Positions 19,664 through 34,931 of a stretch of DNA of 35,346 nucleotides are shown here, one piece after another. The notes under the pieces were generated by a model that saw only the letters and a program-made list of their open reading frames with translations, had not been told where the DNA came from and ran no database searches. The stretch is from NCBI GenBank assembly GCA_030041155.1, contig JASHOJ010000189.1, positions 1 through 35,346 on the forward strand, written 5' to 3'. The position numbers were made by a program, and so were the translations under genes. This stretch comes from Candidatus Binataceae bacterium. Its GTDB lineage: Bacteria; Desulfobacterota; Binatia; Binatales; Binataceae. Each line of letters starts with the position of its first letter. Position 1 is the stretch's first letter.

Positions 19664-19693
19664 GAAAGAGGCCCGGCAGCCCGGGCCTCTTTC
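19664..19693. terminator. Strong hairpin terminator after korB, probably bidirectional
   Basis: A perfect 13-bp stem (GAAAGAGGCCCGG with its exact complement) closes a 4-base loop CAGC. The right arm ends CTCTTTC followed by GTTT, giving a short U-rich tail for the korAB transcript. It sits between convergent stops (korB at 19640, the SDR gene at 19696) and the A-rich left arm would give U's on the other strand, so it may serve both directions. Confidence 0.8.
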
Positions 19694-31594: not shown

Positions 31595-31656
31595 GCATCG
31601 CCGCTGCCTTGCCTGGAGCGGCCGATGCGAGCGGCAGCAAAGAATGGCGGCGATGC
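31595..31656. repeat. Inverted repeat at the paiB 3' end
   Basis: GCATCGCCGC (31595-31604) and its exact complement GCGGCGATGC (31647-31656) bracket 42 bases; CTGCC and GGCAG inside could extend pairing after a bulge. The right arm touches the paiB stop codon. There is no T-run, so a Rho-independent terminator is only weakly supported. Confidence 0.35.
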
Positions 31657-32330
31657 TATTTGGCGAGAATCGGCGTCGATACCGCCGTCTCTCGCGCGCC
31701 GCTTTCCGCACCCCCGAGATAGCGCCGCGAAAAAATCGCCAGCTCGCGCGCGATCGGGTCCGGGCTTTGCTCGAGATTGTGCAGCATCGATTCCTGATCC
31801 TCGCGGCTTCGATTCTGTCCGAGCTTGAACTTACCCTCCATTCGGTCAATCTCAATTACGAAGCCGACGATCTTTTCGATAAGCCGCTCGCGAAAATCCG
31901 CCGGCAGGATTCCCGGCCACGGCTCCGCCATCGGCGATTCGTAAATCGCGATCATTCGATCGAGTAGGCCCGCCATCCACGCGGCATCGTCGATCACACG
32001 CGCGCGCCCGTAAACGTGAACGGTCGCGTAATTCCAGGTCGGAACCGCCGGCGAGACCGTGTACCAAGTGGGCGAGATATAGGCGTGTGGCCCGCTGAAA
32101 ATCGAGAGAACCTCGCGCTTGCCATCGAAGGATTTCCAATGCGGATTCGCGCGCGCAAAGTGGCCGGCCAGCCGCGGGTGCTTGCGTTCCAGGCTATCGA
32201 GAATCAGCGGCACCTGCGACGCGAACAGGCCGTCGCCGGTTTGGGACATGACCGTCGCGAAACTGTGCTTCGCGATAAACTCGCGCAGGGTCGCCTGATC
32301 CGAAACTTCAAACGCCTTCGGCACGTACAT
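31656..32330 (-). CDS. PaiB-family FMN-binding protein (putative negative regulator)
   Basis: This is a 224-aa PaiB-like split-barrel flavin-binding protein. It has the N-terminal MYVPKAFEVSD and LREFIAKHSFATVMSQ, GPHAYISPTWY, and TWNYATVHVYGRARVIDD, all typical of the family. In Bacillus the paiAB pair couples a polyamine acetyltransferase (PaiA, GNAT fold) with PaiB and affects sporulation and protease genes. Here the upstream gene also ends in a GNAT domain. ATG 32330 has a perfect AGGAGG 5 nt upstream, and the gene starts 23 bp inside the 3' end of the upstream gene, so they are translationally linked. Confidence 0.88.
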   Translation of the reverse strand: MYVPKAFEVSDQATLREFIAKHSFATVMSQTGDGLFASQVPLILDSLERKHPRLAGHFARANPHWKSFDGKREVLSIFSGPHAYISPTWYTVSPAVPTWNYATVHVYGRARVIDDAAWMAGLLDRMIAIYESPMAEPWPGILPADFRERLIEKIVGFVIEIDRMEGKFKLGQNRSREDQESMLHNLEQSPDPIARELAIFSRRYLGGAESGARETAVSTPILAK

Positions 32331-33549
32331 TGATTCCTCCTGTGGCTGCCGCTCGCGCTCCTGCCGCGCGTCGATACACCTCCGGATCGAACCGCTCCAT
32401 CAGCCGCTCGGGCGCGGGCGGCTCGGTGAATCCGAATTTCCTATACAGTCCGTGCGCGTCGCGCGTGCCGAGCGTCCATCGCCGGAGGCCCTGCAGGTTC
32501 GGATGCGCCATCACCGCTGACATCAGCGCCTTCGACAAGCCGCGTCCGCGATACTGCTCGAGAATAAAGACATCGGCCACGTAAGCGAACGTCGCGTAGT
32601 CAGAAATCACTCGCGCCATGCCGATTTGCGCCTCGCCATCGTAAATTCCGAAGCAAAGCGATTCCCGGATCGCGCGGGCCACGGTCGGGCGCGGTATGTT
32701 CTCGCTCCAGTATGCGTGCGCGAGGAATTGATGAATTACGTTCAAGTCCAGCAGCGATACGTCGGTGCTGATTAGAAATTCGCCCGCGCGCCGCTCGAAC
32801 GGTTCGCCGTCATGGGCACGCGCCGAACCTCGCACGCGTTCATCTGGCGTCCGATACTCGCTCACATGAGGCGGCGGTGCGATTTTCGGGTCGAGTCGCG
32901 CGTCGGCAATCTCCGAACGCGCCGTCATCTTGAGCGGAATCACTCCCGCCCAGACCGGCAGCGCATAGTCCGCCTCATCGTCGAGTGCTTCGCCGGTGCG
33001 GATTTTCGCCGACGCCTCATCGATCGGGAGTTCGAGCACCAGCGTCGTCGCCGTCTCTTTTTCATTTGGTTGGCGTACGCTGTTCCATCTGCCGGGCGCT
33101 ATGTGCTCGACCAGCGCGCGCAGCGCAGCGATCTTCCGCGCGCGATCCTCCAGCCGCCGCGCGCGCCCGAAGATTACTGCGGACCGGTAATTCACTGACT
33201 GATGGCGTGCCGACCGGGCAAGCACGAGTCCATCGATCATCGTGACCGTCACGCAGATCTCCGCCGCGCCATCAGCGGTGGTATTAAGCATATGGTTTGC
33301 CGCTGAGCCGTGGATAAACAGCCGATCGGCTATACGCGCGTGCAGCGTCGGCAGCACCACCGGAGCCCCATCGGCGATAAAGCCGACGTGCGCCACCATC
33401 GCGCGATCGAGGATCGCGTAAACCGCCTCGCGTTCGTAGCGCGCGCGCTTCGCCATCCGCCTGATAGCCGTGCGCTCGGTCTTCTTCAGTTTTCTGTTTC
33501 CAGGCTCTTCGGTTTCGGGACCGTCGTGGGTGGGGGATGTCGTCTTCAC
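32308..33549 (-). CDS. Fusion of PNPOx-like flavin-binding domain and GNAT acetyltransferase
   Basis: This is a 413-aa two-domain protein. Residues about 25-225 match the pyridoxamine-5'-phosphate-oxidase-like split barrel (Pyridox_ox_2 type): RARYEREAVYAILDRAMVAHVGF, PVVLPTLHARIADRLFIHGS, then RHQSVNYRSAVIFG. Residues about 258-380 are a GNAT N-acetyltransferase with the acetyl-CoA loop YRGRGLSKALM and the closing TRDAHGLYRKFGF. The two halves are joined by a polar linker. GTG 33549 is the only start that keeps the conserved TERTAIRR lead; GGAG lies 10 nt upstream. It is divergent from a MocR gene across only 50 bp and linked to paiB. Confidence 0.87.
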   Translation of the reverse strand: MKTTSPTHDGPETEEPGNRKLKKTERTAIRRMAKRARYEREAVYAILDRAMVAHVGFIADGAPVVLPTLHARIADRLFIHGSAANHMLNTTADGAAEICVTVTMIDGLVLARSARHQSVNYRSAVIFGRARRLEDRARKIAALRALVEHIAPGRWNSVRQPNEKETATTLVLELPIDEASAKIRTGEALDDEADYALPVWAGVIPLKMTARSEIADARLDPKIAPPPHVSEYRTPDERVRGSARAHDGEPFERRAGEFLISTDVSLLDLNVIHQFLAHAYWSENIPRPTVARAIRESLCFGIYDGEAQIGMARVISDYATFAYVADVFILEQYRGRGLSKALMSAVMAHPNLQGLRRWTLGTRDAHGLYRKFGFTEPPAPERLMERFDPEVYRRAAGARAAATGGINVRAEGV

Positions 33550-33581
33550 GTCTTTTAGTCTCCGCTTGCTCTGCCTTTACC

Positions 33582-33621
33582 ATTTTGTAATAGTACAAAA
33601 TGATGAACGTATTAGTACGTT
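33582..33621. promoter_or_regulatory. Paired palindromic operator at the MocR / PNPOx-GNAT divergent start
   Basis: Site 1 has the arms ATTTTGTA and TACAAAAT around ATAG (33582-33601). Site 2 has the arms AACGTA and TACGTT around TTAG (33606-33621). Both share the core GTA-NTAG-TAC and their centres are exactly 22 bp apart, two helical turns. Site 1 covers the MocR ATG and site 2 the next codons. The arrangement fits a dimeric regulator, most simply the MocR protein itself, acting on both divergent genes. Confidence 0.68.
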
Positions 33622-34931
33622 ATCAGATTCGCGGAAAATCAGGCAAGGAGATCGCGGCCAGTATAGAAGACGCGATCCGCTCGGGCCGGCTCGGCCCCGC
33701 CCAGCGCCTTCCGCCGATTCGCGATTTGGCGGCAAACCTGCGCGTCAGCCCGGCTACCGTCGCATCCGCCTATCGCGCGATGCGCACGCGGGGGCTCATT
33801 CGTGGCAGCGGTCGGCGCGGCACCGTGGTTAACCATCGCCCGCCGCTTGCCACACCGATTACTCCGGCGATTCCAGCGGGGGTGCGCGACCTCGCAAACG
33901 GAAATCCTGATCTCGCGATGCTGCCACGGCTCGGCGAAATCGTAGGCCGCCTCGAATGCCCGCCGCGCCTCTATGGTGCGGCGGCAAATCGCGAGGATCT
34001 GCTGCGCCTCGCCAAACGGCAATTCGCCGCGGACGGGATCGCCACCGGCGAGGTCGCGGTGCTGAGCGGCGCGATGGACGCGCTCGAGCGAATCCTCACC
34101 GCCCATCTCAGGCCCGGCGACGCGGTGGGTATTGAGGATCCGAGTTACAGCGGCACTTTGGATTTGATCGCGGCGCTCGGCTATGCGGCGGAGCCAATCG
34201 CGATTGACGAGTATGGGCCGGCGCCGGCCGCGATCAAATCAGCGCTCAAAGCCGGCGTTCGCGCGGTCGTCATCACTCCGCGCGGACAGAACCCGACCGG
34301 CGCGGCGCTCGACCGCAAGCGCGCGATGGAACTCCGCGCCGCGATGGCGGCGAATCCCGAGTTGTTGATCGTCGAAGATGATTTCGCGGGACCGGTTGCC
34401 GGCGTTCCCGCGATGACCGCGATCGACCGCGGACGCGAAAGGTGGGCTATCATCCGCTCGGTCTCGAAAGCGCTCGGCCCCGACCTGCGAATCGCGATCA
34501 CAACCGGCGACGCGCTTACGATCGCGCGGGTTGAGGGAATGCAGCGGCTCGGCCCGAGATGGGTCAGCCATATCCTGCAGGAAGCGCTGGTTGCGATTTG
34601 GTCGGATGCGAAAATTGCGCGGACGGTGAAGCTCGCGTCGCGCACCTACACCGAGCGGCGCGAGGCGGTAATCGCCGCGCTGGCGGCCGAAGGAATAAAG
34701 GCCTACGGGCGTTCGGGGCTGAACGTATGGATTCCGGTGCGCGAAGAAACCACTGCGATCCAATCGCTGCTCGATTCGGGATGGGCGCTGCGTGCGGGCG
34801 AGCGCTTCAGAATCCGCGCCGGCCCGGGTATCCGCGCCACGGTGGCGGCGCTGCCTGTCGAAGATGCTCCGCGGCTTGCGCGCGACATCGCGTCGGCTCT
34901 GCGCCCCCGCGCCCTCGCCACCGCCGTCTGA
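33600..34931 (+). CDS. MocR/PdxR-type transcriptional regulator (GntR wHTH fused to aminotransferase-like domain)
   Basis: This 443-aa protein carries a GntR winged-helix domain at about 12-78 (GKEIAASIEDAIRSGRL, LRVSPATVASAYRAMRTRGLI). It is joined to a fold-type I aminotransferase-like domain with the PLP features N231 in GQNPTG, D260/D261 in VEDDF, the Schiff-base lysine K290 in SVSKALG and R297. All key residues are kept, so PLP binding is likely. MocR proteins sense PLP and related ligands and usually control the divergent neighbour. Here that is the PNPOx-GNAT/paiB unit. No ribosome site precedes ATG 33600 or 33603; the message may be leaderless. Confidence 0.9.
   Translation: MMNVLVRYQIRGKSGKEIAASIEDAIRSGRLGPAQRLPPIRDLAANLRVSPATVASAYRAMRTRGLIRGSGRRGTVVNHRPPLATPITPAIPAGVRDLANGNPDLAMLPRLGEIVGRLECPPRLYGAAANREDLLRLAKRQFAADGIATGEVAVLSGAMDALERILTAHLRPGDAVGIEDPSYSGTLDLIAALGYAAEPIAIDEYGPAPAAIKSALKAGVRAVVITPRGQNPTGAALDRKRAMELRAAMAANPELLIVEDDFAGPVAGVPAMTAIDRGRERWAIIRSVSKALGPDLRIAITTGDALTIARVEGMQRLGPRWVSHILQEALVAIWSDAKIARTVKLASRTYTERREAVIAALAAEGIKAYGRSGLNVWIPVREETTAIQSLLDSGWALRAGERFRIRAGPGIRATVAALPVEDAPRLARDIASALRPRALATAV

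Follow-up and report, generated by a model that had tools for sequence, protein, structure and literature searches.

A pair of palindromic sites 22 bp apart, lying over the start of a MocR-type regulator gene in a Candidatus Binataceae contig, is proposed to be the operator at which this PtsJ-like regulator binds and represses both its own gene and the divergent PNPOx-GNAT operon, at promoters that would overlap the two sites. We put the probability of this reading, which was reached by sequence comparison, at roughly three in four. The locus is a known kind of switch and is notable mainly for the deep cross-phylum conservation of its sites and for their overlap with the first codons of the regulator. 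It provides a precise, testable candidate operator for a large uncharacterized MocR clade found in Binatota, Acidobacteriota, Actinomycetota, and other phyla, and a search rule, two copies of TTGT-N6-ACAA at a 22-bp distance covering the regulator start, should find such genes and correct their start codons.

The locus and its paired sites

The window, meaning the whole stretch of 35,346 nucleotides that was analyzed, carries the features collected in Table 1. A sequence-only reading of this DNA had placed two palindromes 22 bp apart at the MocR start, and both are present there; its 50-bp divergent gap (33550-33599, between the MocR and PNPOx-GNAT genes), with site 2 running into the first MocR codons, was likewise confirmed. 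The arms that it gave for site 2 hold (AACGTA-TTAG-TACGTT, 33606-33621), whereas site 1 extends further than it had described, with arms of 9 bp. Within the sites, the 10-mers GTAATAGTAC (33587) and GTATTAGTAC (33609) start 22 bp apart.

Table 1. Features of the divergent locus in the window
Feature	Position	Strand	Basis or remarks
FMN_bind_2 (PaiB-like) gene	31656..32330	-	Pfam; overlaps the end of the PNPOx-GNAT gene
PNPOx-like domain (Pyridox_ox_2) fused to GNAT acetyltransferase, putative divergent target	32308..33549	-	Pfam
Putative operator site 1, CATTTTGTA-ATAG-TACAAAATG	33581..33602	.	Perfect 9-bp arms; family consensus TTTTGTTACAGTACAAA
MocR-type regulator, PtsJ-like	33603..34931	+	Pfam GntR wHTH and class I/II aminotransferase (Aminotran_1_2)
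Putative operator site 2, AACGTATTAGTACGTTAT, over the first MocR codons	33606..33623	.	Family consensus GTATCGGTACAATAT; 22 bp from site 1

The window has 16 perfect inverted repeats whose loop is 4 bases and whose arms are at least 6 bases, and 2 whose arms reach at least 8; sites 1 and 2 are the sole pair among them at a 22-bp distance. The other repeat with arms of at least 8 bases, a GC-rich hairpin with 13-bp arms at 19664-19693 that is followed by T-rich sequence, is likely an intrinsic terminator. The genome has 7 occurrences of GTANTAGTAC, against 38 of a reversed-pattern control, with no two of the 7 close together except at these sites; the full two-site pattern has a single exact match, at this locus. 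Two-site hits with one mismatch were no more common than those of the reversed control in the genome scan, and no wider regulon is claimed. A literature search with the motif letters returned unrelated primers only. Since a palindrome pair somewhere in 35 kb is not very improbable, the weight of the case rests on conservation.

The only MocR gene in this genome encodes a protein with the architecture of the MocR subfamily, a GntR domain at 16-77 followed by an Aminotran_1_2 domain at 124-429 (Pfam). Its best NCBIfam match is PtsJ (NF012025), at 377.5 bits over the whole length and below the curated cut-off of 573, followed by PdxR (164 bits) and GabR (78 bits); GabR and PdxR-type entries are also among its PDB matches. 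The stretch SVSKALGPDLR, which aligns with the SK-L-P-LR stretch of GabR, contains a candidate pyridoxal phosphate (PLP)-binding lysine, and a string match found S[VT]SK in 41 of 59 relatives. On the other side of the gap, the FMN_bind_2 gene probably shares an operon with the PNPOx-GNAT gene, and it is also present in two other loci (G020 and G068), where the divergent cluster is kept.

The start of the regulator had been read at 33600, where its open reading frame begins. At this position most of the closest orthologues carry a codon other than ATG, followed by ATG as the next codon, so the true start is probably the ATG at 33603, as judged from these alignments. Start codons vary among relatives, with ATG at codon 2, GTG at codon 4, or ATG at codon 5, and some loci have in-frame stops just ahead of the start; site 2 thus contains the start codon itself in many relatives.

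Conservation of the pair and selection in the first MocR codons

MocR relatives were drawn from related genomes and from a species-representative collection, and an ungapped comparison of the sequence ahead of the protein start covered 42 related loci (43-100% protein identity) from Binatota, Acidobacteriota, Actinomycetota (Streptomyces and others), Myxococcota/Deltaproteobacteria, and Krumholzibacteriota. This alignment of orthologous divergent regions, the check that the sequence-only reading had proposed, revealed the 22-bp pair at the same position in dozens of loci from several phyla. In 36 of the 42, the consensus TTTTGTTACAGTACAAA followed by GTATCGGTACAATAT stands in the same register to homologous MocR codons. 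At site 1, the left-half G and the right-half A and C of GT-N6-AC are invariant (42/42); because the motif served as the anchor of the 42-row alignment, column counts such as this one are somewhat inflated. When spacings from 14 to 44 were scanned with no anchor, 22 bp alone stood out, with a mean score of 12.6 of 16 versus 8.6 for shuffled sequence, and scores of at least 13 were reached in 22 of 42 loci at this spacing versus 0 to 4 at any other.

The motif that emerges differs in part from the one first read. The core GTA-NTAG-TAC is indeed present in the window; what the family conserves, however, is GT-N6-AC, which most relatives show as TTGTTACAGTACAA, and the TAG of the spacer is not kept. 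Site 2 has a short left half (GT[A]), which in many relatives falls on a GTG start codon. Most orthologues read AACGTA...TACAAT or TACATT at site 2, and by this comparison the perfect arms of the window's site 2 are partly a local accident. The second site is weak or absent in a few distant loci (L041, L051, L107, L112, and L115). Outgroup loci show the same 22-bp peak in weaker form, and one from Cupriavidus necator (L110), outside the motif-defining set, has a perfect tandem pair, TTGTCTTAGTACAA-8-TTGTACTGACACAA. This pair spans about -158 to -122 relative to codon 1, far ahead of the point where the MocR start aligns. No clear 22-bp pair was seen at Acinetobacter MocR loci or at two Streptomyces plasmid loci. 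The type of spacer in site 1 (C or T at position 8) was considered as a clade marker and rejected, as it changes often on the tree.

Because site 2 is coding sequence, its silent positions can be examined separately from the protein. Neither MocR codon 6 nor codon 7 ends in G or C in any of 36 loci (0/36 each), compared with 29.2 expected from genes whose third positions average 81% G/C. Glutamine within site 2 is encoded by CAA in 16 of 16 cases, against a four-to-one preference for CAG in the gene bodies, and codon 4, where it encodes valine and is not a plausible start, is always GTA, a codon that accounts for 89 of 1361 valine codons in these genes. The PNPOx genes of the same loci showed no comparable drop in GC3 at codons 3 to 15. 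Fixation of A or T at the silent positions of site 2 indicates that the DNA itself, and not the protein only, is under selection, which here is strong and acts inside the first codons of a regulator.

Partner genes and related regulatory systems

In most loci with enough flanking sequence, the divergent partner adjacent to mocR is a PNPOx homologue, and in the Streptomyces loci it is an MFS transporter gene. As the partner changes while the operator stays, the operator is best assigned to MocR. Two further kinds of partner were read from translations, with no profile match: a DJ-1/PfpI-like gene in L038, and, in two Acidobacteria (L045, 3922-2126, minus strand; L039, 2023-233, minus strand), a MutS-like gene with a Walker-type GSNMSGKSTLLRT, which is an unexpected partner for a B6-type regulator.

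In the tree, ptsJ genes form a separate clade beside that of the window MocR. Here the core shifts to TTGTCCTAGGACAA and the layout is unchanged: the ptsJ loci of Rahnella, Enterobacter 638, Lelliottia, and Duffyella have a 22-bp pair over the regulator start, sites of the type TTGTC-N-TAGG, separated by 22 bp, occur at the start codons of enterobacterial and Vibrio ptsJ-like genes, and plasmid-borne ptsJ genes of enterobacteria (L113, L114, L119, and L120) combine a 22-bp pair with a TTGTC-N-TAGG core. In L113, L114, and L119, ptsJ has a YggS-type PLP-binding gene as its divergent neighbor. PtsJ of Salmonella, a MocR-like repressor of pdxK, is thus comparable in being the nearest NCBIfam equivalog and in the pair at the enterobacterial ptsJ start codon, but differs in its core (TTGTCCTAGGACAA versus TTGTTACAGTACAA in the window clade) and in its neighbors, which are YggS-type, kinase, or amidotransferase genes rather than PNPOx-GNAT.

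MocR operators that combine direct and inverted boxes at helical-turn spacing on one DNA face have been described by comparative genomics, in work that also reported PdxW regulons of PNPOx genes with acetyltransferases (Suvorova and Rodionov 2016, PMC5320631). In that survey, PdxW-type loci place a MocR gene beside putative PNPOx genes with RimI/RimL-type acetyltransferases, have very few targets, and have operator boxes spaced by whole helical turns. The window locus has this gene content (MocR, PNPOx, and acetyltransferase) and a single full operator in the genome, through which MocR would exert control; it fits the PdxW/MocR-operator class, in which the survey has 14 PdxW groups, by gene content and box spacing. 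Its Streptomyces relatives differ from PdxW in having an MFS transporter as partner. The box order of the window operator, -> <- -> <-, is absent from the MocR box orders in Table 2 of the survey. A new architecture is not claimed, given the short left half of site 2 and a comparison made against the box orders of Table 2. GabR and PdxR operators are similar in that they are built of GntR-type half sites, place direct and inverted repeats along the same side of the helix, and serve a divergent target; in contrast, characterized GabR and PdxR activate the divergent gene, their box sequences are other, and their protein similarity to the window MocR is weaker.

Proposed repression and alternatives

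A spacing of 22 bp corresponds to about two helical turns and would set both sites on one DNA face, where they may be occupied by one or two MocR dimers. Between the PNPOx start codon and the outer edge of site 1 there are 0 to 17 bp in 24 of 31 loci and 33 bp in the window, and mocR itself starts at or within the pair. With both start codons at or near the sites there is no room for a promoter outside them, so that, from geometry only, both promoters should overlap the operator. Bound MocR would then block both, causing autorepression and repression of PNPOx-GNAT, and the block may be relieved when the PLP, or a related B6 vitamer, bound by the aminotransferase-like domain changes. A paired MocR site between regulator and target, as first proposed with no commitment to activation or repression, is thus supported by the comparisons above, from which we infer binding by the window MocR, repression, and a PLP-type ligand. 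The proposed repression agrees with the behavior of PtsJ, the nearest characterized homologue, which represses pdxK (pdxK rises about 80-fold without PtsJ; PMC13353753) and binds PLP (PMC12172467).

Alternatively, MocR may use the same operator to activate the divergent PNPOx operon and repress only itself, like GabR or PdxR. We consider this unlikely, if the most credible of the alternatives: the 2016 survey describes MocR genes as often divergent from positively regulated targets and several MocR proteins as activators of their divergent target (PMC5320631), which counts against repression, whereas the short distance from PNPOx start to site 1 would put the operator on the core promoter rather than upstream of it, and PtsJ is a repressor. 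A more elaborate reading starts from the presence of inverted repeats and a 22-bp direct repeat in one operator: depending on its PLP state, MocR could choose which of the two repeat types to bind, while in many phyla its own first codons would be held fixed as part of the operator. This seems doubtful to us; the dual symmetry of the sites offers a natural test of PLP switching MocR proteins between the two modes.

The conserved sequences could instead be core promoter or translation-initiation elements, such as shared -10/-35 hexamers and leaderless starts, which we regard as improbable. Start codons do abut the sites, and site 1 includes TACAGT and TACTGT, which could act as -10 boxes facing each other, some 7 bases ahead of the start codons in several loci. 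However, promoter hexamers give no reason for invariant GT-N6-AC dyads to recur across phyla with a spacing of exactly 22 bp or for silent sites to be fixed beyond the start codon, and a scan of the region for sigma-70-like promoters found none. The operator and promoter-element readings may both be true. Binding by a different transcription factor is less probable still: assignment to MocR is itself inferred, but across phyla and beside different partner genes the motif stays with the MocR gene, and in the PtsJ sister clade a different core stands in the same layout. Chance palindromes combined with protein-level conservation of the MocR N terminus, for which the local perfection of the site 2 arms and the conserved Gln/His/Arg-Tyr pair encoded there might speak, are refuted by the aligned loci, in which noncoding site 1 is conserved too, by the silent-site fixation at codons 6 and 7 and in the CAA codons, and by the 22-bp spacing scan.
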